Source of the DNA: Luteimonas terricola
Lineage (GTDB): Bacteria; Pseudomonadota; Gammaproteobacteria; Xanthomonadales; Xanthomonadaceae
NCBI RefSeq assembly: GCF_004352845.1
Contig: NZ_SJRX01000009.1
Span: 1-64,000 of the forward strand
Length of the DNA stretch: 64,000 nucleotides
Direction: 5' to 3'
Shown here: positions 15,865 to 33,040 of the stretch, in pieces
How the letters are laid out: every line of letters starts with the position of its first letter
Numbering within the stretch: position 1 is the stretch's first letter
The notes under the pieces: model-generated
Told to the model about the DNA's origin: nothing
The model's input: the letters and a program-made list of their open reading frames with translations, nothing else
Database searches by the model: none
Position numbers and translations under genes: made by a program

Positions 15865-18201
<2,337 letters not shown>

Positions 18202-18265
18202 GGTGGGGCTGCGGTCCGGGCGGGCTTTCCATTCTAGCCCCCAAGCAGGAGGCGGCCCCCGATGC

Positions 18266-18282
18266 CATAACCCCCGGTTATG
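18266..18282. promoter_or_regulatory. LysR-type operator site 1 (dgcN side)
   Basis: CATAACCCCCGGTTATG is a perfect palindrome with 7-bp arms and fits the T-N11-A LysR box. It ends 96 bp before the dgcN ATG. Related 17-mers lie at 28341-28357 and 30218-30234 upstream of functionally linked genes. The regulator is probably the LysR protein encoded at 32147-33040 (inference). Confidence 0.7.
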
Positions 18283-18378
18283 CGCGGCGGGCATCTTTTC
18301 AATGGCGGGGCGTCGGCGCAGGACAGAAGATGGAGTTCCCCCCCCTGCCCACCCGGGCCGCACAGGACGCAACAGGTC

Positions 18379-19422
18379 ATGTCCACCGCCAACTCCGCCG
18401 CCGCAGACGCCTCGCACTGGTCGCCGCCGTTCCTGCTGTACCTGGGCAACGCGGCGGACGACCTCGCCGCCAAGACCGCGCGCGGGCTGGTGCAGTTCCG
18501 GCCGGAATGGTGCGTGGGCCAGTTCCGCGGGCCGGAGTGCAGGACCAGCGTCCACGTGCCGGACATGGACTTCGCCCAGGCCCGCGCCGCCGGCGCCAAC
18601 ACCATGATCGTCGGCGTGGCCAATGCCGGCGGGCGGCTGGGGCCGGACTCGGTCGCGGACATCATCGCGGCGCTGGATGCCGGCATGAACGTCGCGTCCG
18701 GCCTGCACGAGCGGCTGCTCTCGCACCCGACGATCGTCGAGGCCGCGCGCCGCAACGGTCGCCACCTGTTCGACGCCCGCACCCCGCCGGCCACGCCGGT
18801 CGGCAACGGCGCGAAGCGCGCCGGGCGCCGGCTGCTGACCGTCGGCACCGACTGTTCCACCGGCAAGATGTACACCACGCTGGCGCTTGAAACCGAGATG
18901 CGCGGGCGCGGGCTCGCCGCGGATTTCCGCGCCACCGGCCAGACCGGCATCTTCGTGGCCGGGCGCGGGATCCCGATCGACGCGGTGGTGGCCGACTTCA
19001 TTTCAGGCGGCATCGAATGGCTGTCGCCCGAGCGCCACGATGGCGGCTGGGACCTGATCGAAGGCCAGGGGTCGCTGTTCCATCCCTCGTACGCCGGCGT
19101 GTCGCTGGGCCTGCTGCATGGCGCCCAGCCCGACGCCCTGGTGCTGTGCCACGAGCCCGGCCGCCCGCACATGCGCGGCCTCCGGCATTACCCGCTGCCT
19201 GGTCTCGTCGCCACGCTGGAAACCAACCTTGCCGCCGCGCGACTGACCAGCCCCGGGGTGGTCGCGGTCGGCCTGGCGCTCAACACCTCGAAGCTCGACC
19301 CGGCCGGCGCCGTGCGCGCCTGCCGCGAGGCCGAGGACCTGCTCGGGCTGCCCGCGCAGGACCCGATGCGCGATGGCGTGGCGCGGATCGTCAACCGGCT
19401 GCTGGAGTCCGTGCCGTGCTGA
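18379..19422 (+). CDS. dgcN: DUF1611 family N-acetyltransferase DgcN
   Basis: This 347-residue protein belongs to DUF1611. It has a Rossmann-like N-terminal domain and a P-loop-like C-terminal domain with TVGTDCSTGKMYT. In Pseudoalteromonas DgcN is described as an N-acetyltransferase acting on D-glutamate as the first step of D-Glu catabolism; that function is transferred by family and context. The downstream dgcA overlaps by 7 nt, as expected for this pair. The start was chosen at the ATG with an upstream AGG. A LysR box lies 96 bp upstream. Confidence 0.88.
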   Translation: MSTANSAAADASHWSPPFLLYLGNAADDLAAKTARGLVQFRPEWCVGQFRGPECRTSVHVPDMDFAQARAAGANTMIVGVANAGGRLGPDSVADIIAALDAGMNVASGLHERLLSHPTIVEAARRNGRHLFDARTPPATPVGNGAKRAGRRLLTVGTDCSTGKMYTTLALETEMRGRGLAADFRATGQTGIFVAGRGIPIDAVVADFISGGIEWLSPERHDGGWDLIEGQGSLFHPSYAGVSLGLLHGAQPDALVLCHEPGRPHMRGLRHYPLPGLVATLETNLAAARLTSPGVVAVGLALNTSKLDPAGAVRACREAEDLLGLPAQDPMRDGVARIVNRLLESVPC

Positions 19423-20426
19423 ACCTGGCCCACGCCAGCCATCCACTGGCCACGCCGTTCCGCATTTCGCGCGGCGTGCGCACCTCGACCGAAGTGGTGG
19501 TGGCGACGATCCGCCGCGGTGGCTTCACCGGCCGCGGGGAAGCGCTGCCCTACGCCCGCTATGGCGAGAGCGTGGCCTCGGTGATCGAAGGGGCTTCACT
19601 GCTCTCGCCGGCGATCGCCGGCGGACTGGACCGCCGCGGACTGTGCGAGCTGCTGTCGCCGGGCGCGGCGCGCAATGCGCTCGACTGCGCGCTGTGGGAC
19701 CTGGAGTCGCGGCAGCAGGGCACGCCGGTCTCGGCGCTGCTGGGCCAGCCCGGCGCGCTGCCGCCGCTGGCCAGCGCGCAGACCGTCAGCCTCGACACGC
19801 CCGAGCGCATGGCCGAGGCGGCGCGCGCGCTCGCCCGCCTCGAACTGGTGAAGATCAAGGTCGACGCCTCCGACCCGGCCGCGCAGATCCGCGCCGTGCG
19901 CGGCGCGCTGCCCGGCGCCCGCCTGATCGTCGATCCCAACGAGAGCTGGACGCTCGAACTGCTGGAGTCGCTGCAGCCGGTGCTCGCGGAAGCCCGTATC
20001 GACCTGGTCGAACAGCCGCTGCCGGCCGGCGGGGACGACGCCCTGTCCGGCTTCTCCTCGGTGGCGCGCCTGTGCGCCGACGAGTCCTGCCACACCGCCA
20101 GCGACCTGCCGCGCCTGCGCGGGCGCTACCAGGTGGTCAACATCAAGCTCGACAAGACCGGCGGCCTCACCGGCGCGCTGGAGCTGCTGGACGCGGCGCG
20201 CGCGCAGGGCTTCGGAATCATGGTCGGCTGCATGATCAGCTCCTCGCTGGCGATTGCGCCGGCGTGGCACATCGCGCGCCACGCCGAGTTCGTCGACCTC
20301 GACGGACCGCTGTGGCTGAAGGACGACCACGCCGGCGGCGCGGTCATGCGCGACGGCCTGCTGCAGCCACCGGCCCCGGAGCTGTGGGGCGGCGGTGCGC
20401 GCGTCGAGGACGCGCAGCCGGCATGA
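19416..20426 (+). CDS. dgcA: N-acetyl-D-glutamate racemase DgcA (enolase superfamily)
   Basis: A GTG start (VLNLAHASHP) gives 336 residues of the dipeptide-epimerase branch of the enolase superfamily. Catalytic and metal residues are visible: Lys in LVKIKVD, Asp in DPNESW, Glu in EQPLP, Asp in ADESC and Lys in NIKLDKTGG. Next to dgcN the likely substrate is N-acetyl-D-Glu, racemised to the L-form. An L-Ala-D/L-Glu epimerase acting on muropeptides is the main alternative and would also fit the locus. It overlaps dgcN by 7 nt and the next gene by 4 nt. Confidence 0.87.
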   Translation: MLNLAHASHPLATPFRISRGVRTSTEVVVATIRRGGFTGRGEALPYARYGESVASVIEGASLLSPAIAGGLDRRGLCELLSPGAARNALDCALWDLESRQQGTPVSALLGQPGALPPLASAQTVSLDTPERMAEAARALARLELVKIKVDASDPAAQIRAVRGALPGARLIVDPNESWTLELLESLQPVLAEARIDLVEQPLPAGGDDALSGFSSVARLCADESCHTASDLPRLRGRYQVVNIKLDKTGGLTGALELLDAARAQGFGIMVGCMISSSLAIAPAWHIARHAEFVDLDGPLWLKDDHAGGAVMRDGLLQPPAPELWGGGARVEDAQPA

Positions 20427-22105
20427 GGGCTGGCCGCGACTGCCGCACCGGCCCGCGCGTGCGGGAACGTCGCCGGCCCCTGCGCATGCTCGCGGTCGCA
20501 ATGGCGGGTGGCCTGCCCGGCCTGCTGCTGCTCGCCGGCTGCGCCGGCCCGCCGCGGGACCAGGCACCTGCGGCCGAAGCCGACACCCTGATCCACGGCG
20601 GGCTGCTGTTCGACGGCGGCCACGGAGCCGGCCGGATCGCCGACGTCGCGATCCGCGGCGACCGCGTCCTCGAAGTGGGCCCCGGCCTGCGCCAGCGCTA
20701 TCGCGCGGCGCGGGAAATCGACGCCACCGGGCAGGTGGTGTCGCCGGGCTTCATCGATCCGCACACGCATCCCGACACCTACCTGCGTTCGCAGGACCCG
20801 GCGGCGCGACGCCTGCTGCCGTGGCTGCACCAGGGCGTGACCACGATCTTCATCGGCATCGACGGCGGTGGCACGCCGGACGTCGCGGCCGAGCGCACCA
20901 CGCTCGAATCCGCGGGTACCGGCACCAACGTCGCCGCCTATGTCGGCCTGGGCCCGGTGCGGCGGCGCGTGCTGGGGCACGACGCGCGCGCGCCCGAGGC
21001 GGCGGAACTGGCGCGCATGCGCGGCCTGGTCGCGGACGCGATGTGCGAGGGCGCCTTCGGCCTGTCGGCGGGGCTGTTCTATGCGCCGCAGAGCTTTGCC
21101 TCCACCGACGAGGTGGTCGCGCTCGCGCGCGAGGCGGCCCTCCGCGGCGGCGTCTACGACACCCACCAGCGTGACGAATCGAGCTATTCGCTGGGTTTGA
21201 TGGGCTCGATCGAGGAAGTGCTCGAGATCGGCCGGCGCGCAGGACTCCCGGTGCACATCGCCCACATCAAGGCGCTGGGCGCGGACGTCCACGGCAGCGC
21301 CGGCGAGGTGGTCGCGCGCATCGAGCGCGCCCATGCCGAAGGCCAGCGCGTGACCGCCGACCAGTATCCCTGGCTGGCCTCCTCCACCAGCCTCGGCGCG
21401 GCGTTGCTGCCGCGCTGGGCGGTGGACGGCGGGCGTCCGGCGCTGTTCGAACGGCTGGACGATCCCGCCACCGCCGCCCGCATCCGCGACGGCATCCGCG
21501 ACAACCTCCAGCGCCGCGGCGGCGCCGACGCGATCCTGATGACCGGCACCGGCTGGCCGTGGAGCGCGCGCACGCTGCAGCGCTTCGCCGACGAGGCCGG
21601 GATCGACCCGGTCGAGGCCGCGTTGCGCATCATCCGCGAGGGCGGCACCGGGCGCACCGGCTCGGCGCAGCGGATCGCGTCGTTCAACATGCATCCCGAC
21701 GATGTCCGGCTGTTCATGCGCCAGCCCTGGGTGCTGACCGCGTCCGACGGCGGCGACGGCCACCCGCGCCAGCACGCGACCTTCCCCGAGAAGTACGCGC
21801 GCTTCGTCGCCGGCGAGGGCGTGATCGACCTGGCCGCCTTCATCCACCGCTCCACCGGGCTGACCGCGACCACCTTCGGCATCGAGGATCGCGGCTTCCT
21901 GCGCGCCGGACAGTTCGCCGACGTGCTGGTGTTCGACCCGGAAGCCTATGCGCCGAAGGCCGATTACGTGCGGCCCGCGGTGCTGTCGGAGGGCGTCGTG
22001 CACCTGTTCGTCAACGGCGTGGCCATGATCGACGAGGGTCGAGTGGCACATGCCCTGCCGGGACGGGTGCTCCAGCATCGTCCGCCACCGGGCACCTGCC
22101 CTTGA
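20423..22105 (+). CDS. N-acyl-D-amino-acid deacylase lipoprotein (amidohydrolase)
   Basis: This 560-residue protein has an N-terminal lipoprotein signal (LLLLAGC, Cys40; an internal ATG at 20486 would shorten the signal). The amidohydrolase domain has DPHTHPD (HxH), HIAHIKALG and SDGGDGHPRQHATFP, characteristic of the D-aminoacylase/N-acyl-D-glutamate deacylase family. It should release D-amino acids from N-acyl-D-amino acids or from D-containing peptides, here at the cell envelope. It overlaps dgcA by 4 nt, so it is part of the dgc operon. Confidence 0.88.
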   Translation: MRAGRDCRTGPRVRERRRPLRMLAVAMAGGLPGLLLLAGCAGPPRDQAPAAEADTLIHGGLLFDGGHGAGRIADVAIRGDRVLEVGPGLRQRYRAAREIDATGQVVSPGFIDPHTHPDTYLRSQDPAARRLLPWLHQGVTTIFIGIDGGGTPDVAAERTTLESAGTGTNVAAYVGLGPVRRRVLGHDARAPEAAELARMRGLVADAMCEGAFGLSAGLFYAPQSFASTDEVVALAREAALRGGVYDTHQRDESSYSLGLMGSIEEVLEIGRRAGLPVHIAHIKALGADVHGSAGEVVARIERAHAEGQRVTADQYPWLASSTSLGAALLPRWAVDGGRPALFERLDDPATAARIRDGIRDNLQRRGGADAILMTGTGWPWSARTLQRFADEAGIDPVEAALRIIREGGTGRTGSAQRIASFNMHPDDVRLFMRQPWVLTASDGGDGHPRQHATFPEKYARFVAGEGVIDLAAFIHRSTGLTATTFGIEDRGFLRAGQFADVLVFDPEAYAPKADYVRPAVLSEGVVHLFVNGVAMIDEGRVAHALPGRVLQHRPPPGTCP

Positions 22106-22151
22106 GTGCCGCCTGCGAACTGCGGGCGGCGCGACGCCGATAAGGAACGCC

Positions 22152-23351
22152 ATGCTGCAGCTCGACGCCGTCCAGACCCTCGCCCTCGCCGGCATCGCCC
22201 TGTTCCTGGGCTATGCGCTGTGCCGCACGATCCCCGTGCTCGGCCGCTACAACCTGCCGCCGCCGGTGATCGGCGGGCTGGTGTTCGCGATCGGCGCGTG
22301 GATCGCGCACGAGCGCGATGTGACGCTGTTCGTGCTCGACACCGGCCTGCAGGGCCCGCTGATGATCGCGTTCTTCACCACCATCGGCGTCAACGCCAGC
22401 CTGCGCCTGCTGAAGATCAGCGGCAAGCAGGTGGTCGTCTTCCTTGGCCTGGCGACGCTGTTCGCGGTGGCGCAGAACCTGCTCGGCGTGGCGGTCGCAG
22501 CCGGCTTCGACCTGCACCCGCTGTTCGGCGTGCTGGCCGGCTCCACCACGCTCACCGGCGGCCCCGCCACCGGGCTGGCGTTCGCACCGCTGTTCGAGGC
22601 GGCAGGCGTGGAAGGCGCCGAATCGATCGCGGTGGCCTCCGCCATGTCGGGCATCGTGCTCGGCGGGCTGATCGGCGGACCGGTGATCACGGTGCTGATC
22701 CGCCGCTTCCGCCTGGTGTCCACCCGGCCGGAGGACCACGCTGCGCCCGACGACACCGCCACCGCCGCCGCACCGGCGCCAACCGAGGCCCAGCGGGAGT
22801 ACGGCGCGCTGAAGAGCATCGTGGTGATCCTGGTGGCCATGTGGCTGGGCAGCTGGGTCAGCGACCTGATCTCGGCGACCGGCATCACCCTGCCGGCCTA
22901 CGTCGGCGCGATGCTGGTCGGCGCGCTGATCCGCAACATCGACGACGCCACCGGCTGGATCGGCATGTCGGTGCCGACCACCGACCTCATCGGCAACGTC
23001 TGCCTGGCGCTGTTCCTGTCGGTGGCGCTGATGAACCTCAAGCTGTGGGAGCTGGCCGGGCTGGCGCTGCCGCTGATGGTGAACCTCGGGCTGCAGGTGG
23101 CGATGGTGGTGGCGTTCTGCCTGGTGGTGTTCCGGATGATGGGCCGCGACTACGACGCCGCGGTGATGAGCGGCGGCTTCATCGGCTTCATGCTCGGCAC
23201 CACCGCGAATGCAATGGCGGTGATGCGCACCCTGGTCGAGCGCTACGGCGCCGCGCCGCGCGCGTTCCTGGTCGCGCCGCTGGTGGGTGCGTTCTTCATC
23301 GACTTCAGCAATGCGCTGGTCATCACCGGGTTCCTCAACTTCTTCAGTTGA
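22152..23351 (+). CDS. gltS: Sodium/glutamate symporter GltS
   Basis: This 399-residue protein has about ten to twelve membrane helices and the GltS signatures GSTTLTGGPATG and GFMLGTTANAMA in two inverted repeats. GltS imports glutamate with Na+ and accepts D-glutamate poorly to moderately in some bacteria. An AAGGAA site precedes the ATG. It lies 46 bp after the deacylase gene and closes the dgc operon, matching uptake of released glutamate. Its stop overlaps the convergent hydrolase gene by 8 nt. Confidence 0.92.
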   Translation: MLQLDAVQTLALAGIALFLGYALCRTIPVLGRYNLPPPVIGGLVFAIGAWIAHERDVTLFVLDTGLQGPLMIAFFTTIGVNASLRLLKISGKQVVVFLGLATLFAVAQNLLGVAVAAGFDLHPLFGVLAGSTTLTGGPATGLAFAPLFEAAGVEGAESIAVASAMSGIVLGGLIGGPVITVLIRRFRLVSTRPEDHAAPDDTATAAAPAPTEAQREYGALKSIVVILVAMWLGSWVSDLISATGITLPAYVGAMLVGALIRNIDDATGWIGMSVPTTDLIGNVCLALFLSVALMNLKLWELAGLALPLMVNLGLQVAMVVAFCLVVFRMMGRDYDAAVMSGGFIGFMLGTTANAMAVMRTLVERYGAAPRAFLVAPLVGAFFIDFSNALVITGFLNFFS

Positions 23352-25152
23352 CCGGCACGTCATACAGCGGCCCGGGTTCAGCACCGGAGCGGAAGCTGTA
23401 GTGCCACCACTCCATCGGGTAGTTGCCGAAGCCCCCGGCCTGCATGGCGTCGCGCAGGAGATGCCGGTTGGCGCGCTGCGCGGCGCTGACGTCCGGGGAG
23501 TCGGTGTTGGCGCGGGGTCCGAAGAAGTCGAACGTCGTTCCCATGTCCAGGGGTTCGCAGGCGGCGCCACCCGCGTCGCACTGCAGCAGGGTGAGGTCGA
23601 TGGTATGGCCACGGCTGTGGCCGGACACCTGCGCGATGTAGCCGTCGAGCAGCTGCGGCTTGTCCAGGTCCGGATAATGCGTCGCCTTGGTGGCCTGGTC
23701 GTCCGCGTCGTTCACCCAGCGCATGAAATGCGCGACCGCCCGCACCGGGCGGTAACAGTCGAAGACGTGCAGGCGCATGTGCCTGGCGCGCAGCGACGCC
23801 TCCACCCGCGCCAGCGCCCCGGCGGCCCCGCGCTTCAGCCAGCAGCGCGGCGCGAGGTAGCCGTCCACCGGCGCGCCGACGAAGTTGTCGCTGGTGGCGT
23901 AGGCGATGGCCTGCGACATGTCCGGCACCAGACTGCGGATGTCGACCATGCCCGCCTGTTGCATCGTCGCCGCATCCGACACGGCGGGCGCGTCTGCCGC
24001 CAGCGCGGCACCGTCGATGAAGTGTTCGTACAGGGCCCGGTTGACCTCGTCCCGGATGCCGGTGTCGCGGGTGCCGTTGGTCATCACCACGAAACCGTAC
24101 TTCGCCTCCGCGTCGAAGAACATGGAGCTGTACAGGCCATAGGCCGATCCGGTGTGCCCGGTCAGCACCACTCCGGGCACCAGCGCCCGCTCGGTCCGGA
24201 TGGCCAGGCCGTACCCGGCCGTTCCGTCGATGTCGACGGTCGGCTCCTGCATCGTCGCCGCATGCTCCGCGCCGAGGATGCGCACGCCGTTCCACGCGCC
24301 CTGGTTCATGTGCATCAACATGTACTTCGCCAGGTCGGGCGCGGAGATCTTGAGGCCGCCGGTGGGCGAGAACACCGGCGCGTCGTAGCCGATGACATGG
24401 CCGTGAAGCCGCTCGCCCAGCGGCGCGTACGCCGCGTCCGAGCGCACGAAGCCCTCGCCCTCGCGCCAGCGGTAGATGCGGGCGATCCGGTCCGCGTCCA
24501 GCGCGTCCACCAGGTGGCCGCCGTACAACCCGAGCGGCTCGAGCACGTGGCGCTTCACGTAGGCGTCGAAGCGTTCGCCGGACGCGCGCTCCACGATCGC
24601 CCCCACCATGTTGTAGGCAAGGTTGGAGTACTCGTAGCGCTCGCCGGGCGCGCGGTCGGCGTAGCTGTCCTGCCACTGCCCGCCCGCGTCGGGATTGATG
24701 AAATCAAGACTGCCGTACTTCGGGCCGTCGGTGATCGACGAGGTGTGGTTCAGCAGCATCCGGAGCGTGATCGGCCGCTCCGGGAAGGCCGGGTTGCGCA
24801 CCGGGAAGCCGATCAGATCGCCGGCCTCGTCGTCCAGTGACAGCCGCCCCTGCTCGGCCAGCTGCAGCACCGAGACGGCGGCGAACGACTTGGAGATGGA
24901 CGCGATGCGGAACACATCCTCCTCTTCCAGCGGAATCTTCCGCTCCAGGTCCTTCCAGCCCAGGCTGCTGCGATGGACGACGGCGTTGTCCCTCACCACC
25001 GCCACCGCCAGGCCCACCGTCCCGTGCTCCTCCATCAGGGCGCGCAGCTGGTCTTCGATGCCCTCGGCGGCCGTGGACGCTTGCCAGGCGCAGGCCAGCA
25101 GCAGGCCCATGCCCAGCGACAGCAGGCGGTCCATCCTTGTGCGCTTCTTCAT
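23344..25152 (-). CDS. Serine beta-lactamase-like hydrolase fused to VanX-type D,D-dipeptidase
   Basis: This 602-residue protein has a signal peptide (cleavage near STAAE, residue 29). The N-terminal domain (about 32-390) is a class C beta-lactamase/DD-peptidase fold: SISK with Ser85 and Lys88, YSN at 175-177 and LTGHTG. The C-terminal domain (about 410-602) is peptidase family M15D: DCYRPVRA, zinc motif SGHSRGHTIDL and EWWHYS with the catalytic Glu. VanX cleaves D-Ala-D-Ala. Both halves keep their catalytic residues, so both may act on D-Ala-containing peptides in the periplasm. It starts 30 bp after the TonB receptor and is likely in the same operon. Confidence 0.88.
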   Translation of the reverse strand: MKKRTRMDRLLSLGMGLLLACAWQASTAAEGIEDQLRALMEEHGTVGLAVAVVRDNAVVHRSSLGWKDLERKIPLEEEDVFRIASISKSFAAVSVLQLAEQGRLSLDDEAGDLIGFPVRNPAFPERPITLRMLLNHTSSITDGPKYGSLDFINPDAGGQWQDSYADRAPGERYEYSNLAYNMVGAIVERASGERFDAYVKRHVLEPLGLYGGHLVDALDADRIARIYRWREGEGFVRSDAAYAPLGERLHGHVIGYDAPVFSPTGGLKISAPDLAKYMLMHMNQGAWNGVRILGAEHAATMQEPTVDIDGTAGYGLAIRTERALVPGVVLTGHTGSAYGLYSSMFFDAEAKYGFVVMTNGTRDTGIRDEVNRALYEHFIDGAALAADAPAVSDAATMQQAGMVDIRSLVPDMSQAIAYATSDNFVGAPVDGYLAPRCWLKRGAAGALARVEASLRARHMRLHVFDCYRPVRAVAHFMRWVNDADDQATKATHYPDLDKPQLLDGYIAQVSGHSRGHTIDLTLLQCDAGGAACEPLDMGTTFDFFGPRANTDSPDVSAAQRANRHLLRDAMQAGGFGNYPMEWWHYSFRSGAEPGPLYDVPVN

Positions 25153-25182
25153 GGTTCCTCCGGCAGGTGGTGCGGCAGTGTC

Positions 25183-28100
25183 TCAGTCGAAGGACTTGGT
25201 GACCGTCAGATAGTAGCCACGGCCCAGCGCGTTGTGCAGCGACGAAAAGCCCAGCGCGGTCGGCATCAGCGGCGGCTGGCGGTCGCCGATGTTGCGGACG
25301 GTCAGGCGGACGCGCAGGCCGTCGAGGAAGCCGTCTGTGCCGCTGAAGCGGCGTTCGGCCCAGACGTTGGTCGTCGTCCAGCTCGGCACCGGATAGTAGT
25401 TGCCGAGGTTGGACACCGCGCCGGTCGATTCGAACCCGTCGATGTGGTTGACGAAGGTGCCCAGGCCCCACCCGTCCTTGCGCCAGGTGCCGCTGAAGGT
25501 CGCGCGCCACTGCGGCTTGCCGTTCACGCCCAGCAGGTTGCCGGCGTTGCGGATGTCGAAGTTGTCGTCGATGAGTCCGGCTTCCTGCGCCGCGATGATG
25601 CGCATCTCGTCATCGGTGGAATCCTGTGTCATCTGGATCAGGCGCGTCGCATTGAGGCTGGCGCTGAACGTGCCGGCGGTGTCGGTGGCCATGCGCCAGT
25701 CGACGCCGAAATCGATGCCGCGCGTGGTCCTGGGCAGGCGGTTGATGTACAGGTCGTCGACGTAGTCGACCCGGCCCACCGGATCGAGTCCGGTTCCTTC
25801 GAACAGTGCGATCCGCTCTTCGTCCGGCTCCAGGCGCACCACGGCGGGGTTGAACGAGCCCTCCATGCGCAACAGATAGTCCAGGGCCAGGTGCGTGGCC
25901 TCGCCGAGTATGCCGATCACGTCTTCCTGCTGGATCTCGAAGTAATCGGTGGTGAAGGTCATGCGGGTGGATTCAGGCAGGAAGCGCGGCTGGAACACGA
26001 AGCCTGCCGACCAGGTTTCCGCGGTCTCCGGCTGCAGGTCCCGGTTGCCGCTGCGGATCGCCATCGTGCTGTAGCTGCGGCCACAGCGATGCACGCCATC
26101 GATGGTGCCCTTGCGGATGTCGGCCTCGCACACGTAGTAGTCGGTGCGGGTGTTGCTGACCGTGGTGCCCTCGGAATACATCTGCAGGATGTTGGGCGCG
26201 AGGAAGCTCTGCGACCAGTTGGCGCGGAACATCATGCCGTCGACGATGTCCCAGGCCAGCGAGACCTTCGGCTTGGCGACGCCGCCGAAGTCCGAGTAGT
26301 GCTCGTAGCGCCCGGCGACCTGCAGGTCCAGCGCGCGCACCAGCGGGATCGCGAACTCGGCGTACAGCGAACCCACTTCGCGGTCCCCGGAGTTGTCGCC
26401 GGACGGGCTGGCGCCAAGCACGTCGCTGGTGATGGCTCCGGTCATCGGATTGGTATAGGTGAGCGTGCCGTCGAAACTCGGATCACGGTCGTCGTTCAGG
26501 GTTTCGCGACGCCACTCACCGCCGAACGCGACGCCCACGTGGCCGGCCGGCACCTGGAACAGGTCCTCGCGGATGAAGCGGGTGTCCAGCTGGAACAGGG
26601 TCGCCTTGCTGTCGCGCACCACCGGCACGGTGAAGTGGTCGATCGCCGCCTGGTTCCGTGCCGGGTCCGCGGGCGCGCCCCAGTCGTCGCGGTTTCCGCC
26701 CAGGAACGGGTTGTATGCGTCCGGCGTGCTCCACGACAGCGCCTCGGAGAACAGCGTGTTGCTGATCGAACCGTACTGGGTATCGGTGGTGGTCGCGGAG
26801 GAGTACAGCAGCGCACCCTCCCAGTCGAAGCCACCGACCATGCCGCGCACGCCGGTGAGGAAACGGTATGACTCGTCGTCCACGGTGTACGGGCGCGAGG
26901 TGTCCGTCGGCCGGTAGCTGGCCAGGCGGACGTCCAGACCCTCTTCCGGGGCGTCAATGCCCGCCAGGCGGTTCGGGTTGAGCGAGCCATCCGGGAGGTA
27001 CATCGCGCCGAACGGGTTGTAGTAGTTGTCCTTCGACACCAGGATCGACGCCGCGCCCAGCGGCGCGGCCTGCTCGCGCATGCCGTGGTAGCGCGCCTTG
27101 TAGAAGGCCAGCTCGCCGAAGGCGACGAAGTTGTCGTCCAGGTCGTGCTCGAGCGTCCCGAACGCATTCATGCGGTCCAGCTCGCCCATGATCAGGCGCT
27201 GGTGGTTGGGGCTGAAGCGAAGCGGGCGGTCGCTGGCGGTACTCTGCGCGCCGGAGTTGATGCAGACCCCGTCATCGAGCGCGGCCGTGCAGCCGTGGTG
27301 TCCGACCGGATCGATGTGGAACTGGCCGCTGCCGTTGGTGATCAACGCCCCTCCGGGGCCGCGCACCGCCGCGTTGCCGACGGTCTGGAACGCGCCCCAG
27401 GCCGAGCTGGAGATGCGGTCGTCGAACGCGGTCACGCCCTCGAACTCGGTCCCCTCCATCAGCGGGCGGCGGTCCATGTTGGCGGTGTAGTCGCGCGCGT
27501 CCGCCGGCAGGTCGGTGCGGTGCGTCCAGCCGCCGACCAGCGTGGCGCGCGTGCGGCCGTCGTTGAACCACTGGCCCCACTTGAAGTTGATATTGCCCTG
27601 GCGCAGGTCGACGTCCTCGGAACCGCCGTACTGGGCCTGCACCTGGAAGCCCTGGTAGTGCGTGTCCAGGATCACGTTGACCACGCCGGCCACGGCATCC
27701 GAGCCGTACAGTGCGGACGCGCCGCCGAGCAGGGTCTCGATGCGCCGGGTACCGAACAGCGGGATCGCGTTCATGTTGGCGGTCTGCCGTGGCACCAGCG
27801 ATTCGGTCTGCGTGCCCGGGTGCGGCACCATGCGGCGCCCGTTCACCATCAGCAGCGTGTTGCCGGTGCCGAGGTTGCGCAGGTTGATCGATCCGACGTC
27901 GCCGCGCGCCGCGTTGAGGTTGGACGCGGTGTCGGTGTTGCTGAACATCATGTCGCCGACCTGCGGGATCGCCTGCAGCAGCTCGTCGCCGGAGATCGCG
28001 CCGGTCGCCTCGATCTTCTCCTCGTCCATCACCACCACCGGCGAAGGACCCTCGGTCCGGGAGCTCGCAAGCCGGCTGCCCACGACCACCACGGCGTCCA

Positions 28101-28233
28101 GGTCCTTGGCCGTGGCCTCGGCCTGCGGCTGCGCCGGTTCGACGCCGTCCTGCTGCTGCGCGAACGCCGTGCTATGGAGCATCGATGCAAGGATGACGCT
28201 GAGCAGCGTCGGTTTGATCAGGCGATGGTGCAT
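25183..28233 (-). CDS. TonB-dependent outer-membrane receptor
   Basis: This 1016-residue protein has a signal peptide (MLHSTAFAQQQ) and a plug domain (about 45-180) with VVVVGSR, NLRNLGTGNTLLMVNGRRM and GGASALYGSDAVAGVVNVI. A 22-strand barrel follows and ends with aromatic-rich strands (GRGYYLTVTKSFD). It lacks a CarO-type N-terminal extension. The substrate is not predictable from sequence; context suggests a glutamate-rich or muropeptide ligand. A GGAGG-like site precedes the ATG. A LysR box and promoter lie upstream, and the D,D-dipeptidase gene follows after 30 bp. Confidence 0.92.
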   Translation of the reverse strand: MHHRLIKPTLLSVILASMLHSTAFAQQQDGVEPAQPQAEATAKDLDAVVVVGSRLASSRTEGPSPVVVMDEEKIEATGAISGDELLQAIPQVGDMMFSNTDTASNLNAARGDVGSINLRNLGTGNTLLMVNGRRMVPHPGTQTESLVPRQTANMNAIPLFGTRRIETLLGGASALYGSDAVAGVVNVILDTHYQGFQVQAQYGGSEDVDLRQGNINFKWGQWFNDGRTRATLVGGWTHRTDLPADARDYTANMDRRPLMEGTEFEGVTAFDDRISSSAWGAFQTVGNAAVRGPGGALITNGSGQFHIDPVGHHGCTAALDDGVCINSGAQSTASDRPLRFSPNHQRLIMGELDRMNAFGTLEHDLDDNFVAFGELAFYKARYHGMREQAAPLGAASILVSKDNYYNPFGAMYLPDGSLNPNRLAGIDAPEEGLDVRLASYRPTDTSRPYTVDDESYRFLTGVRGMVGGFDWEGALLYSSATTTDTQYGSISNTLFSEALSWSTPDAYNPFLGGNRDDWGAPADPARNQAAIDHFTVPVVRDSKATLFQLDTRFIREDLFQVPAGHVGVAFGGEWRRETLNDDRDPSFDGTLTYTNPMTGAITSDVLGASPSGDNSGDREVGSLYAEFAIPLVRALDLQVAGRYEHYSDFGGVAKPKVSLAWDIVDGMMFRANWSQSFLAPNILQMYSEGTTVSNTRTDYYVCEADIRKGTIDGVHRCGRSYSTMAIRSGNRDLQPETAETWSAGFVFQPRFLPESTRMTFTTDYFEIQQEDVIGILGEATHLALDYLLRMEGSFNPAVVRLEPDEERIALFEGTGLDPVGRVDYVDDLYINRLPRTTRGIDFGVDWRMATDTAGTFSASLNATRLIQMTQDSTDDEMRIIAAQEAGLIDDNFDIRNAGNLLGVNGKPQWRATFSGTWRKDGWGLGTFVNHIDGFESTGAVSNLGNYYPVPSWTTTNVWAERRFSGTDGFLDGLRVRLTVRNIGDRQPPLMPTALGFSSLHNALGRGYYLTVTKSFD

Positions 28234-28291
28234 GTGGTGACTCCCCTCCGAAGGTACGGATCCGCGCGCGGTCGCACGCTCCCCTGGCCCG

Positions 28292-28357
28292 ACTCTAGCG
28301 ACGCTGCGATCCTGCCAAGCCTCGTTTTTTGATCCCGTTCCATAGCGGCAGGTTATG
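28292..28357 (-). promoter_or_regulatory. TonB-receptor promoter with LysR-type operator site 2
   Basis: On the minus strand TTGGCA (28313-28318) and TAGAGT (28292-28297) are spaced 15 bp apart and could be -35 and -10. The 17-mer CATAGCGGCAGGTTATG (28341-28357) is a near-palindrome with the T-N11-A core. Its centre would lie near -64, the usual activator site for LysR proteins. The site begins 107 bp before the receptor start. Confidence 0.55.
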
Positions 28358-28364
28358 CCCGCGC

Positions 28365-30113
28365 CTACTGCGCGACGGCCTCGGCGCCGGGACGCCGCGG
28401 ATCGGCCGCGCCCTGCACGCGCTGCGCTTCCAGCAGCAGCGTCTGCGTGCTGCCGATGGTCTGGCCCTGCTCCGGCTGGTGGCCCCGTTCGCGCAGGATG
28501 CGCAGCGTGTCGGGGCTGAACCCGCGTTCGATGTCGAGTTCGCCTCGGGTGGTGACCTGCTGGTGGATGCGCGGGAACGCGGTGGCCTCGGCGATGTTCA
28601 TTCCGAAGTCGACGACGTTGACGATCATCTGCACGATCGTGCCGGGAATGGTGTTGCCGCCCGGGCTGCCGGTCACCAGCCAGGGCCTGCCGTCGCGCAG
28701 CAGCATGGTCGGCGCCATGCTCGATACCGGCCGGCTGCCCGGCCGCAGCGCGTTCGCCGGCGGCGCGCGGCCGTCGCGCGCGGCTTCGAGCTGGGCCTGC
28801 AGCGAAAAGTTGCCGATCAGGTTGCCGAGCAGGAAGCCGGTGCCTTCGATCATCACTCCGGAGCCGAAGTCCGCGCCGATGGTGTAGGTGGTGCTGACCG
28901 CGTTGCCGTCGCCGTCCACCGCCGAGAAGTGGGTGGTCTCCGGGCCCTCCTGCGCCCAGATGTCGCCGGCCTCCACGTCGGCGGCCGGAGTCGCGCGCTC
29001 CATCGTGATCGCGGCCGCCCGCGACGCGCCGTAGGCCTTCGACACAAAGCCTTCCAGCGGCACGCGCGCCGCGGCCGGATCGTTGGCGTGGGCCCGGCGG
29101 TCGCGCCAGGCGCGCTTGGTCGCCTCGGCCAGCAGGTGCAGCGCATCGGCGGAGCCCGCGCCCATCGCGGCGAGGTCGAACTGCTCCAGGATGTTGAGCG
29201 TCATCGCGATGCCCGGCCCGCCGCCGCTGGACGGCGGCATGGTCAGCAGTTCATGCCCGCGGTAGCTGCCGCGCAGCGGCTCGCGTTCGATGGCGCGATA
29301 GGCGGCGAGGTCCAGCTTGCGCAGCAGCCCGCCGTGGGCGCGCATGCCGGCGTCCAGGCGCTCGGCGATTTCGCCGCGATAGAAGGCATCGGCCCCGTGC
29401 TCGGCGATCTGGCGCAGGGACCAGGCGAGGTCGGCCTGCACCAGGCGCTCGCCCGCGCGCAGCGCGGAGCCGTCCGGATGCAGGAAGACCCCCGCGCCCG
29501 CGGCACTGCGCGCGAGCCGCTCCCGGCCCCAGTCCAGCGCGAAGGCCTCGTCGCGGCTGAGCACCATGCCGTCCCCGGCCAGCCGGATCGCCGGCTGCAG
29601 CAGCTGCTTCCATGGCAGCCGCCCGTACTTTCCGTGCGCCAGCGCCAGCCCCGCCACCGTGCCCGGCACGCCGGCGGCACGGATGCCCGCCGAGTGGCCC
29701 TGGAGGTTGCCGTCCTCGCCCACGTAGGCATCGAGCGTGGCCAGCGCGGGCGCCATCGAACGGAAGTCGATCGCGACGGCGCGGTCTTCGTCCGCGAGGT
29801 GGATCAACATGTAGCCGTCGCCGCCGATGTTGCCGGCGCGCGGCAGGGTCACGGCCATCGCGAAGGCCATGGCCACGCTGGCATCGACTGCATTGCCGCC
29901 ATCGCGCAGCACCTGGGCGCCGATCCGGCTGGCATGCCCGCTCTGGCTGACCACCATGCCGGCGTCGGCCTCGAGCGGCTTGTGGATCTGCTCGTAGTTG
30001 AGCAGCTGCCGCACCTGCGCCGGAGCGGGCACCGGCGCAGCCACCGACGAGGTGGTCGCGGCCAGGAAGAGGCACAGCAGTGCGCTGCGGATCGGGGCGG
30101 ATGGCCTGCGCAT
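28365..30113 (-). CDS. ggt: Gamma-glutamyltransferase 1 (periplasmic)
   Basis: This 582-residue protein has a Sec signal peptide (about 26 residues, SSVAA). The autoprocessing site is the Thr of PETTHFSAVD, which would become the N-terminal nucleophile of the small subunit. The PSSGGGPGIAM and GSPGGNTIPGT glycine loops and RPVSSMAPT are conserved. GGT hydrolyses or transfers gamma-glutamyl groups from glutathione and gamma-glutamyl peptides; some homologues degrade poly-gamma-glutamate. It is divergent from ggt2 around a shared LysR box 104 bp from its start. Confidence 0.94.
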   Translation of the reverse strand: MRRPSAPIRSALLCLFLAATTSSVAAPVPAPAQVRQLLNYEQIHKPLEADAGMVVSQSGHASRIGAQVLRDGGNAVDASVAMAFAMAVTLPRAGNIGGDGYMLIHLADEDRAVAIDFRSMAPALATLDAYVGEDGNLQGHSAGIRAAGVPGTVAGLALAHGKYGRLPWKQLLQPAIRLAGDGMVLSRDEAFALDWGRERLARSAAGAGVFLHPDGSALRAGERLVQADLAWSLRQIAEHGADAFYRGEIAERLDAGMRAHGGLLRKLDLAAYRAIEREPLRGSYRGHELLTMPPSSGGGPGIAMTLNILEQFDLAAMGAGSADALHLLAEATKRAWRDRRAHANDPAAARVPLEGFVSKAYGASRAAAITMERATPAADVEAGDIWAQEGPETTHFSAVDGDGNAVSTTYTIGADFGSGVMIEGTGFLLGNLIGNFSLQAQLEAARDGRAPPANALRPGSRPVSSMAPTMLLRDGRPWLVTGSPGGNTIPGTIVQMIVNVVDFGMNIAEATAFPRIHQQVTTRGELDIERGFSPDTLRILRERGHQPEQGQTIGSTQTLLLEAQRVQGAADPRRPGAEAVAQ

Positions 30114-30217
30114 GGTTAGGGTCCTTCAGTCGCGTCCGCTCCGACACTGCCGCAGGCGATCCCGGCTGTCGCCCAGCTTTCCTGCGGTCCGGTATGCACC
30201 CGGGCTATGGATCGTCC

Positions 30218-30234
30218 ATAACCTGGCGCTATCG
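30218..30234. promoter_or_regulatory. LysR-type operator site 3 between the two ggt genes
   Basis: CATAACCTGGCGCTATC has one exact arm of site 1 (CATAACC) and a second arm (CGCTATC) matching the complement of the left arm of site 2 in six of seven bases. The T-N11-A spacing is kept. It is 104 bp from the ggt1 start and 106 bp from the ggt2 start, so it could serve both. A possible -10 (GATAGT, 30275-30280) for ggt2 places the box centre near -61. Confidence 0.6.
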
Positions 30235-30340
30235 GAGACCCCGGCAAAGCGAGGGGCGGGCGATGTCCGTCCGCGATAGTCTCGGGGCCTCGATCCGCTC
30301 TGGCGACGCACGCGCCGGCGGCCCCGCAGGAATCCCGCCC

Positions 30341-32083
30341 ATGGTCACGTTCATGCTGCACGCATTCCTCGCGACGTCGCGCCACGCGCTGCTCGTTGCC
30401 GCCCTCCTGGGCCTGGTGGCCTGCGGCACCGGTGCCCGCGTCGCCACGCCGGTGCAGCAGCCCGCCGATATCGCGGAGGCGCGCACTGCGGGCCTTGTCA
30501 GCAGCGCGCATCCGCTCGCCACCGAGGCCGGCCTGGAGGTGCTGCGCCGCGGCGGCAGCGCGATCGACGCCGCGGTCGCGGTGCAGGCAACGCTGGGGCT
30601 GGTCGAGCCGCAGAGTTCGGGCCTGCTGGGCGGGGCGATCGTGCTGCATTACGACGCGAAGTCCGGCCGCGTCGACAGCTACATCGGCCGCGAGCACGCG
30701 CCCGCCGGCGCCGGCCCCGACATGTTCACCGACGCGGACGGGGGCGCGCTGCCACGTGCCGAGGCCATGCTCGGTGGCCGCGCCACCGGCATCCCCGGCG
30801 CGCTGCACGCACTCGAACTCGCGCATGCCGCGCACGGCGCGCTGGACTGGGCCGCCCTGTTCGAACCCGTCGCGCTGCGCGCCGAGCAGGGATTCGCGCT
30901 GAGTCCACGGCTGCACCGCCACATCGCGGGCCGCTTCCCGCAGGCATCCGCGCCCGACGTCGTGGCATTGTTCGCCGGCCCGGACGGCGCGCCGCTGGGC
31001 GTCGGCGACACCTTCCGCAATCCGGCCTATGCCAGCAGCCTGCGCATGATCGCCACGCGCGGCGCCGACGCCCTGCGCACGGGTCCGCTGGCCGACGCCC
31101 TGGCCGCCCGCGTGGCGGACCCGCCCCACGGGGCGCACATGTCCGCGACCGACCTCCGCAACGGCGGCGCTGAACGCACCGACGCGCTCTGCCGGCCGCT
31201 GCGGGCCTGGCTGGTCTGCTCGGCTCCGCCACCGGCCAGCGGCGTCGGCCTGCTGCAGCTGATGCTGCTGCTCGACGGCACCGACATCGCGCAGCGCGGC
31301 CCCGATGATCCACGGGCCTGGCTGCTGCTGGCCGAGGCCAGCCGCCTGATGTACGCCGACCGCGACCACTACGTGGGCGATCCGCGTTTCGCGCAGGTGC
31401 CCGTGGACGGCCTGCTCGAACCGCGCTACATCGCAGGACGCCGCGCGCTGATCGGCGCACGCGCCGCGCCCGAAGCACCCGCACCCGGCCGCCCGCCCGG
31501 GGCGCGCACGCGCGATGCCGATGCCACCGACGAGCCGGCCGGCACCAGCCACTTCGTGGTGGTCGACGCCGCCGGCAACGCCGTGTCGATGACCACCACC
31601 ATCGAATCCTATTTCGGCTCCGGGCGCGTGGTCGGCGGCATGCTGCTGAACAACCAGCTCACCGATTTTTCCTGGGGCCCGGGCGCGGCGGCCGCCAACG
31701 CGATCGCGCCGGGCAAGCGCCCACGCTCGTCGATGTCGCCGGTGATCGTGCTCGACCGCGACGGCGGCTTCGTCGGCGCCATCGGCTCGCCGGGCGGCAA
31801 CGCGATCCCCGCCTACATCGCCAAGGCCCTGGTCGGCTGGCTGTACTGGGACCTGCCGCTGCAGCAGGCGGTCGACCTGCCCAACCTGGTCGCGCGCGGC
31901 GGGCGGTTCAACGGCGAAGCCGACGCCTTTGCGCCTGCGCTGCGTGCCGCGCTGTCCGACCTCGGCGTCGATATCGTCGCGGGCGCCGGCGAGGATTCGG
32001 GCCTGCATGGCGTGGCCCGGGCCGACGGCGTGCTGCAGGGCGCCGCCGATCCGCGGCGCGAGGGCGTGGCCGCACAACCTTAG
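30341..32083 (+). CDS. Gamma-glutamyltransferase 2 family lipoprotein
   Basis: This 580-residue protein has a lipoprotein signal ending LVACG (Cys28), so it is probably membrane-anchored, unlike ggt1. The GGT nucleophile region is GTSHFVVVDAAGNAVSM with the catalytic Thr, and the loops SSMSPVIVL and GSPGGNAIPAYI are present. It is divergent enough from ggt1 to suggest a different substrate. The ATG follows AGGAA. The LysR gene follows 63 bp downstream on the same strand, so the enzyme and regulator may be co-transcribed. Confidence 0.88.
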   Translation: MVTFMLHAFLATSRHALLVAALLGLVACGTGARVATPVQQPADIAEARTAGLVSSAHPLATEAGLEVLRRGGSAIDAAVAVQATLGLVEPQSSGLLGGAIVLHYDAKSGRVDSYIGREHAPAGAGPDMFTDADGGALPRAEAMLGGRATGIPGALHALELAHAAHGALDWAALFEPVALRAEQGFALSPRLHRHIAGRFPQASAPDVVALFAGPDGAPLGVGDTFRNPAYASSLRMIATRGADALRTGPLADALAARVADPPHGAHMSATDLRNGGAERTDALCRPLRAWLVCSAPPPASGVGLLQLMLLLDGTDIAQRGPDDPRAWLLLAEASRLMYADRDHYVGDPRFAQVPVDGLLEPRYIAGRRALIGARAAPEAPAPGRPPGARTRDADATDEPAGTSHFVVVDAAGNAVSMTTTIESYFGSGRVVGGMLLNNQLTDFSWGPGAAAANAIAPGKRPRSSMSPVIVLDRDGGFVGAIGSPGGNAIPAYIAKALVGWLYWDLPLQQAVDLPNLVARGGRFNGEADAFAPALRAALSDLGVDIVAGAGEDSGLHGVARADGVLQGAADPRREGVAAQP

Positions 32084-32146
32084 TCACGCGACACCCGGGC
32101 CGCGGGCGACGATCATGCCCGCTGCCACGCAGGAGTACCGGGCGAC

Positions 32147-33040
32147 ATGCGTTTCCGCCAGATCGAGGTCTTCCACGCCGTCTACACCACCGGCTCCATC
32201 AGCGCCGCCGCGCGCACGCTGCACGTGTCGCAGCCCTCGGTCAGCAAGGTGCTGCAGCACACCCAGCAGCAGTTGGGGCTGGAACTGTTCCGCCTGGTGC
32301 GCGGCCGCCTGGTCGCCACCGACGAGGCGCACGAGCTGTTCGTCGAAGTCTCCGAGGTCTTCAGCCGGCTGACCTCGCTGCAGAAGACGGTCGTCAACCT
32401 GCGCAGCCTGGCCGGCGGCCGCGTCCGGCTGGCGGTGGTGCCCTCGCTCGGGCTGCACATCGCACCGCTGGCGATCGCCCGCTTCCGAGCGCGGCACCCG
32501 GACATCACCTTCGACGTGCAGACGCTGCACCACGACGCGTTGTTCCAGGCGCTGTACGAGCGCAGCTGCGACATCGCCATCGCCTACGACCCGCCGACGC
32601 ACCCGCGGATGAAGCGCCGCGACATCGACACCGGCGAACTGATGCTGCTGTTCCGGACCGCCACCCTGCCCGGCGTCGGCGAGCAGGTGCCCCTGCAGGT
32701 TCTCGACGGGCAGAACCTGGTGGGGCTGACCACGGGCGGCCCGGTCGGCGAGCTGCTCAACCGCGAGCTGCAGCGCGAGGACATCACGGTGAACGAAGTG
32801 GTGTCGAACCAGACCTTCTACATCGCCGCCGAGCTGGCGCGCCACGGCGTGGGCATGGCGGTGGTGGACGAGTTCACCGCACGCGCGGCGGCCGGCCCCG
32901 CCACGTCGCACCGCCCGTTCTCGCCGCCGCTGCGCTTCAAGGTGCAATGCGTGCACCTGGAGGACCGCCCCCCGTCCGAAGCCGCGCGCCGCTTCCTGAC
33001 GGTGTTCGCAAAGACCCTGCGCGACACGCGCGCGGGCTGA
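32147..33040 (+). CDS. LysR family transcriptional regulator
   Basis: This 297-residue protein has an N-terminal winged HTH (about residues 1-60, TGSISAAARTLHVSQPSVSK) and a substrate-binding domain (about 90-290). Its position behind ggt2, and three T-N11-A palindromes before dgcN, the TonB receptor and the ggt pair, suggest that it controls the whole 18-33 kb locus. D-Glu-responsive LysR regulators of dgc genes (DgcR) are described in Pseudoalteromonas; equivalence here is inference. The ligand could be D-glutamate or a gamma-glutamyl compound. Confidence 0.9.
   Translation: MRFRQIEVFHAVYTTGSISAAARTLHVSQPSVSKVLQHTQQQLGLELFRLVRGRLVATDEAHELFVEVSEVFSRLTSLQKTVVNLRSLAGGRVRLAVVPSLGLHIAPLAIARFRARHPDITFDVQTLHHDALFQALYERSCDIAIAYDPPTHPRMKRRDIDTGELMLLFRTATLPGVGEQVPLQVLDGQNLVGLTTGGPVGELLNRELQREDITVNEVVSNQTFYIAAELARHGVGMAVVDEFTARAAAGPATSHRPFSPPLRFKVQCVHLEDRPPSEAARRFLTVFAKTLRDTRAG

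Follow-up and report, generated by a model that had tools for sequence, protein, structure and literature searches.

Here we describe a candidate D-glutamate (D-Glu) utilization locus in a 64,000-nucleotide stretch of DNA from Luteimonas terricola (assembly GCF_004352845.1, contig NZ_SJRX01000009.1, positions 1 to 64,000; hereafter the window). The gene set located at 18.3–33.0 kb of the window most likely represents one module for D-Glu scavenging. With about even confidence we propose that it is a LysR-controlled regulon that scavenges D-Glu bound in gamma-glutamyl peptides, most likely the peptidoglycan stem peptides (L-Ala-gamma-D-Glu-X). Cell-wall D-Glu is a nitrogen source that is released by few enzymes. 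The region would be a TonB-linked utilization locus for bound D-Glu, of which a variant gamma-glutamyltransferase (GGT) encoded by ggt1 is the least expected part. Gene identities, conservation, regulator boxes and pocket substitutions were derived from the sequence.

On the plus strand the region carries dgcN and dgcA, then the gene for a lipobox-bearing protein of the D-aminoacylase type (the amidohydrolase), and gltS. These are followed on the minus strand by a bla/VanX-like fusion, a TonB receptor of 1016 amino acids (aa) and ggt1, and again on the plus strand by ggt2 and lysR. All of these genes had been named in a preliminary description of the window and all were found. Gene identities are based on NCBIfam equivalog cut-offs and Pfam profiles, and genome-wide scans covered the 3.04-Mb genome. 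By visual inspection of the N-termini, a signal peptide or a lipobox was recognized on ggt1, ggt2, the amidohydrolase and the bla/VanX-like fusion.

We determined the conservation of the locus in two samples. Among 297 genomes of the family an ortholog of the LysR regulator is present in 16 and an ortholog of ggt1 in 14, all of them within the 16. In 14/14 genomes lysR and ggt1 lie on one contig at a distance of at most 7 kb, and the remaining two LysR genomes (loci L067 and L068) contain a minimal dgcN-gltS-lysR cluster. The closest named relatives according to ggt1 are Luteimonas species with 86–92% identity. For the second sample GTDB genomes were scanned using ggt1, which yielded 79 loci and revealed the set, in varying composition, in Luteimonas, Pseudoxanthomonas, Stenotrophomonas and two Caulobacter metagenome-assembled genomes (MAGs). 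In the Caulobacter MAGs the genes are co-directional in the order lysR-dgcN-dgcA-TonB receptor-amidohydrolase-symporter-ggt1-ggt2. Duplicate loci were counted once (L064 = L083, L066 = L089, L070 = L088, L071 = L093, L087 = L160, L090 = L162, L139 = L161). This gave 26 distinct LysR loci besides the window, of which L081 and L086 end before the gltS side. Among these 26 loci ggt1 is present in 24, ggt2 in 22, gltS in 22 (replaced by an SDF symporter in 2), the amidohydrolase in 19 and the TonB receptor in at most 22, one of which is a 37% fragment. Less frequent are dgcN (13), an oxidase (13), dgcA (10), bla (9), an M14 gene (6) and vanX (4). The core therefore consists of lysR, ggt1, ggt2, gltS and the receptor, accompanied by variable enzymes. 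The genes are arranged differently in different lineages, both in order and in strand, and two types of TonB receptor, 24–26% identical to each other, occupy the same place, which suggests that selection keeps the set together. The preliminary description had proposed that the genes acting on D-Glu and gamma-glutamyl compounds form a single module linked by LysR. Gene set and boxes indeed recur in other genomes, and instead of scattered parts with unrelated boxes we found the constant linkage of lysR and ggt1, which favors a module.

The regulator gene lysR (32147..33040, plus strand; PF03466, PF00126) starts 63 bp 3' of ggt2 and is probably co-transcribed with it. Three related boxes connect the transcription units, as had been described before. 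Box 1, CATAACCCCCGGTTATG (18266..18282), is a perfect 7-3-7 palindrome with T-N11-A inside and precedes dgcN; a similar box also precedes dgcN in relatives. Box 2, CATAACCTGCCGCTATG (28341..28357, minus strand), precedes the TonB receptor, and box 3, CATAACCTGGCGCTATC (30217..30233, plus strand), lies between ggt1 and ggt2. From box center to start codon the distance is 105 bp for dgcN, 116 bp for the TonB receptor, 112 bp for ggt1 and 116 bp for ggt2. For dgcN this assumes a start at ATG 18379, which is likelier than ATG 18280, where the longest reading frame begins inside box 1; an automatic annotation that picks ATG 18280 may conceal the box. The exact pattern CATAACCNNNSGNTATS occurs at three sites in the genome, all of them in the locus, and a reversed-pattern control gave 0. 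Since the pattern was derived from these three sites their recovery is circular; the absence of other exact fits is not. With two mismatches allowed, 39 matches including the three sites were obtained, compared to 53 for the reversed control. As this is the control level, the scan gives no ground for additional regulon sites elsewhere in the genome, and such candidates were dropped.

In other genomes we counted sites of the form ATARCCNNNGGYTAT in 34 loci of 33 genomes. Module promoters (28,851 bases) contain 19, 26 and 11 sites at 0, 1 and 2 mismatches, coding DNA (389,273 bases) 1, 0 and 10. Boxes with at most one mismatch (45 versus 1) are thus about 600-fold denser in module promoters. Such a box is found in 24/26 loci with the LysR ortholog versus 2/8 loci without it (p = 5e-4). 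The two box-bearing loci of the latter group, L072 and L074, have another LysR gene in the cluster (29% identical), and other LysR genes (32–35% identical) are also found in L075, which has a two-mismatch site, L105 and L122. A palindromic T-N11-A promoter box therefore recurs together with the regulator, except in the two Caulobacter clusters, and LysR is predicted to bind the three boxes of the window.

The two GGTs differ in their pockets. ggt1 (28365..30113, minus strand) encodes an E. coli-type GGT, probably exported, that scores 505.8 bits with TIGR00066 (cut-off 357.85 bits). ggt2 (30341..32083, plus strand) encodes a lipoprotein-type GGT and stays below this cut-off with 321.1 bits; both are clear Pfam members, ggt2 scoring 435 bits with PF01019 (cut-off 27 bits). 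Alignment of ggt1 to E. coli GGT showed that the nucleophile Thr391 and the carboxylate binders Arg114, Ser462 and Ser463 are kept. The alpha-amino site is lost, with Gly, Leu and Asn at positions 411, 430 and 433 (N411G, Q430L, D433N), and the lid residue Tyr444 is changed to Arg. According to a published review, the residues responsible for binding the alpha-amino group are Asn411, Gln430 and Asp433, and Tyr444 acts as a gate by hydrogen bonding to Asn411 (PMC8062742). The review also reports that E. coli GGT with the substitution D433N no longer catalyzes transpeptidation, retains 82% of its hydrolysis and gains activity on glutaryl-7-ACA, the glutaryl substrate having no alpha-amino group (PMC8062742). 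These pocket changes lead us to predict that ggt1 accepts substrates with a blocked amino group, e.g. L-Ala-gamma-D-Glu-X. It would cut N-blocked gamma-D-glutamyl bonds as in muropeptides and thereby release L-Ala-D-Glu or N-acyl-D-Glu. In ggt2 the nucleophile, the carboxylate binders and the amino binders (E/Q/D) are present in a canonical Bacillus-type donor site, and the lid loop is absent. The third GGT of the genome has canonical donor residues.

An alignment of 105 GGT sequences, which excluded loci L160–L166, contained 26 of the variant type, 37 of the E. coli type, 26 of the Bacillus type and a remainder of 16. G411 and N433 are found in each of the 21 aligned ggt1 sequences from loci with the LysR ortholog, and 19 of these also carry L430. 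The variant group requires 2 changes on the tree. Among the 79 loci of the GTDB scan a TonB-receptor match was detected in 21/23 loci with a variant GGT compared to 4/56 others, a comparison that favors relatives because detection used two receptors of this family. Variant GGTs outside loci with the LysR ortholog likewise have a TonB-receptor match in their locus (5/5 loci). Tentatively, and with less confidence than in the regulon itself, we propose that ggt1 founds a GGT subfamily hydrolyzing N-blocked gamma-D-glutamyl bonds (L-Ala-gamma-D-Glu|mDap) and that, together with the TonB receptor, it may provide a periplasmic muropeptide catabolism that bypasses cytoplasmic recycling and is present in several lineages.

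The fate of D-Glu is indicated by the first two genes of the locus, whose products both exceed NCBIfam equivalog cut-offs. dgcN (18379..19422, plus strand; PF07755, PF17396) belongs to the D-glutamate N-acetyltransferase family (NF041892, 501 versus 480 bits) and dgcA (19416..20426, plus strand, with an assumed GTG start at 19416) to the N-acetyl-D-Glu racemase family (NF042940, 430.9 versus 400 bits). By these matches DgcN would acetylate and DgcA would racemize D-Glu. As an L-Ala-D/L-Glu epimerase DgcA reached 309 bits with a cut-off of 343, and this assignment was rejected. A dgcN ortholog (at least 68% identity) is present in 13/297 family genomes, 8 of them among the 16 LysR genomes; in L. 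granuli dgcN is present about 4 kb beyond the stretch taken as the locus. A second, distant DgcN/DUF1611 group, 47–55% identical to dgcN, occurs in more genomes of the family than the ortholog does. Loci without dgcN usually contain a DadA-like FAD oxidase beside lysR. Three of these oxidases were profiled and are nearest to D-amino-acid dehydrogenase (310–325 bits, cut-off 383). Counting distinct genomes, 14 have dgcN without the oxidase, 11 the oxidase without dgcN and 1 both (Fisher p = 1.6e-6, a value that overstates independence since the alternation amounts to about 3–4 switches on the LysR tree and not to 26 independent cases). The count omits L086, which has the oxidase on a short contig. 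The absence of dgcN was established genome-wide in 8/11 oxidase-only genomes and applies to the analyzed stretch only for L091, L092 and L146; genomes were scored as lacking the oxidase on the basis of the locus alone.

The amidohydrolase (20423..22105, plus strand; Amidohydro_3, lipobox LLLLAGC) has the residues K283, Y315, D442 and R449 invariant in 7 orthologs, and these align with the alpha-carboxylate-binding residues of the family. Their roles, and N-acetyl-D-Glu as a substrate of a relative, are given in PMC12017989; L-Ala-D-Glu as a possible substrate is our own extension. The symporter gene gltS (22152..23351, plus strand) scores 341.6 bits with the Na+/glutamate symporter model TIGR00210 (cut-off 310.75 bits). 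In the two Caulobacter MAGs an SDF-family symporter nearest to GltP/DctA takes its place. The TonB-dependent receptor (25183..28233, minus strand; PF00593, PF07715) matches solved structures weakly and mostly in the plug part.

As to substrate, order of steps, localization and binding by LysR we infer the following. The TonB receptor would carry peptides across the outer membrane, and the bla/VanX-type enzymes, where present, may trim their D-Ala ends. ggt1 would cut the gamma-D-Glu-X bond with L-Ala still blocking the amino group, which we propose because its pocket no longer recognizes a free alpha-amino group. ggt2 would act on gamma-glutamyl residues having a free amino group, and the amidohydrolase would free D-Glu of its N-acyl group or its L-Ala. 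GltS would then import Glu, and acetylation by DgcN and racemization by DgcA would deliver it into the L-Glu pool. LysR, made together with ggt2, would bind the three boxes. Exported enzymes, receptor, symporter and cytoplasmic pair would in this way form a linear path from gamma-D-glutamyl peptide to L-Glu.

Several observations weigh against this proposal. The gene set is variable across the 26 LysR loci, 8/16 LysR genomes lack a dgcN ortholog, and in L067, L068 and L093 the locus contains dgcN but no dgcA. The few switches behind the dgcN/oxidase alternation belong here as well, as does the homolog (35%) that the oxidase has at another place in the genome of the window. No boxes were found in the two Caulobacter clusters, which are the two LysR-bearing exceptions, and their ggt1 sequences keep Q430. 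In the amidohydrolase the insertion region is not alignable to Arg295 of BbDam, the Arg for the side-chain carboxylate, so that a residue for the D-Glu side chain cannot be assigned. GltS of the window has Ala and not Thr at position 163 (E. coli numbering); Thr163 is the change that, in E. coli and V. fischeri, auxotrophs for D-Glu acquire for its uptake (PMC12502697). Finally, the lost amino recognition in ggt1 is no proof of D-Glu or muropeptide use. In a comparison of module GltS sequences Thr163 was seen in L070/L088, L072, L074, L090, L091, L092, L139, L146 and L163–L166, and Ala163 in the window and the remaining GltS.

The substitutions in ggt1 fit N-blocked substrates of both kinds, muropeptides or poly-gamma-glutamate (gamma-PGA). 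A regulon serving poly-gamma-D/L-glutamate, the main alternative but one that we consider rather unlikely, would import oligomers through the receptor, trim their ends by the lid-less ggt2, cut inside the chain by ggt1, import both isomers by GltS and convert D-Glu by DgcN-DgcA. Internal residues of gamma-PGA are N-blocked, in agreement with the change in ggt1, GltS and DgcN-DgcA suit the release of D/L-Glu, and lid-less GGTs are described as the gamma-PGA-degrading type (PMC8062742). However, the gamma-PGA hydrolase family PF05908, which was detected in 1/14 control genomes, that of B. subtilis, occurs in 0/14 module genomes, a result limited to this family as PgdS-type and other gamma-PGA hydrolases were not searched. 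Moreover gamma-PGA leaves the bla/VanX-type and M14 neighbors without a role, though these are not core. Most parts, among them the M14 neighbor, can be accounted for by muropeptides, which are also the better fit to the enzymes of the D-Ala-D-Ala type and to an amidohydrolase for N-acyl-D-amino acids.

Alternatively, one regulon could act on diverse gamma-glutamyl or N-acyl-D-amino compounds from necromass, such as glutathione and D-amino-acid peptides, with D-Glu as one product only. The ordinary donor site of ggt2 and the D-serine-dehydratase-type and GntP genes at L090 (= L162), L139 (= L161), L092 and L146 would agree with such a role; the DgcN and DgcA models, however, are named for D-Glu, and glutathione could be handled by the ordinary GGT that the genome encodes outside the locus. 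We regard this explanation as unlikely. Very improbable in our view is that ggt1 is a class IV cephalosporin acylase-type enzyme acting with the bla-like enzyme on beta-lactam side chains in defense or resistance. Asn433 is a class IV acylase signature (PMC8062742) and a beta-lactamase-family gene lies nearby, but the bla domain is far below beta-lactamase cut-offs and found in 9/26 loci, and GltS, DgcN-DgcA and the receptor would be left unexplained.

The families of the locus are all known; their combination and the altered ggt1 look new. The DgcN-DgcA pathway of D-Glu catabolism was described by Yu et al. 2023 (ISME J), as cited in PMC12363236 and PMC10845958. Both enzymes of the window exceed the corresponding equivalog cut-offs, and here they belong to one proposed regulon together with the TonB receptor, both GGTs, the amidohydrolase and GltS. 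ggt1 shares the family, the Thr nucleophile, Arg114 and Ser462/463 with E. coli GGT, and Asn at 433 with class IV cephalosporin acylases (PMC8062742); it differs from both in N411G, Q430L, Y444R and gene context. The amidohydrolase belongs to the same family as D-aminoacylase and N-acyl-D-glutamate deacylase (1m7j, 3gip) and shares their alpha-carboxylate-binding residues, but has an N-terminal lipobox and the insertion region that is not alignable. No title or abstract opening that we found describes the gene set; subscription literature, including Yu et al. 2023 with a possible LysR, was largely outside the scope of this search.

The loci for carbohydrate utilization by TonB receptors (CUT loci) of the Xanthomonas type likewise combine a receptor, exported hydrolases, an inner-membrane transporter, catabolic enzymes and a regulator, whereas the predicted substrate in the window is a D-amino-acid peptide and not a carbohydrate. 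Muropeptide recycling in E. coli by MpaA and L-Ala-D/L-Glu epimerase also splits gamma-D-Glu-mDap and ends in L-Glu. It is cytoplasmic and uses an M14 amidase and a dipeptide epimerase, whereas cleavage in the window is predicted to be periplasmic and by a GGT, with D-Glu epimerized after N-acetylation. If true, a TonB-linked regulon with an amino-independent GGT would show that D-Glu can be extracted from intact cell-wall peptides outside the cytoplasm. G411/N433 would then provide a sequence signature for finding such GGTs, which are candidate enzymes for biocatalysis, and some orphan TonB receptors would gain a functional proposal.

Between gltS and the receptor lies the fusion of a serine beta-lactamase/DD-peptidase-type and a VanX-like M15 domain (23344..25152, minus strand; Beta-lactamase and Peptidase_M15), probably exported. 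Its motifs are intact: SISK, YSN and HTG in the bla part, SGHSRGHTID and EWWH in the M15 part. By alignment to 1r44 the VanX motifs SxHxxGxxxD and ExWH and the Arg of DxYRP are present. Domains and motifs agree with the earlier assignment as a beta-lactamase-like/VanX fusion; the specific names call for caution, as the VanX-like domain scores 162.5 bits (NCBIfam VanX cut-off 320) and the bla domain 60.3 bits (class C beta-lactamase cut-off 415). With the latter score a function of bla in antibiotic resistance was rejected. Besides the window, L. colneyensis, L. padinae and L. arsenica have bla and vanX fused (L082, L084 and L096); L. granuli has vanX as a reading frame of its own following bla, and in the five other relatives that were checked bla occurs and vanX does not. 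The suggested D-Ala-D-Ala part does not belong to the core of the module, and VanX, present in 4/26 loci only, was discarded as a core part. In a PHROGs scan of the fusion two phage families were matched through the bla part.

Other neighboring genes were noticed as well. An M14 (MpaA-like) protein, possibly accessory, is encoded at 34304..35632 on the plus strand and scores 26.6 bits with the MpaA model, below its cut-off of 157; the M14 gene adjoins lysR in L069 and follows the TonB receptor in L093. The genome of the window encodes a member of the LD-carboxypeptidase family, whose presence says little since 6/14 control genomes have one too. A malic enzyme/phosphotransacetylase reading frame (15865–18765, minus strand) lies upstream of dgcN, and in several relatives the malic enzyme gene is divergent from dgcN, or from an amidohydrolase-gltS unit, with the box in the common intergenic region. 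D-serine-dehydratase-type and GntP permease genes stand beside lysR in Pseudoxanthomonas L090 and L139. In Stenotrophomonas L092 and L146 they are farther from lysR and accompanied by a second D-aminoacylase-type gene, and L092 also has an RpiR-type regulator near them. These neighbors suggest a larger D-amino-acid island. A gene for a MATCAP (PF08014) metallopeptidase, absent from the window, is located between rsgA and lysR in several relatives; it was assigned by profile in L083 (5573–6817) and by similarity in L082, L088, L091, L067 and L065, in the last of these near dgcN.

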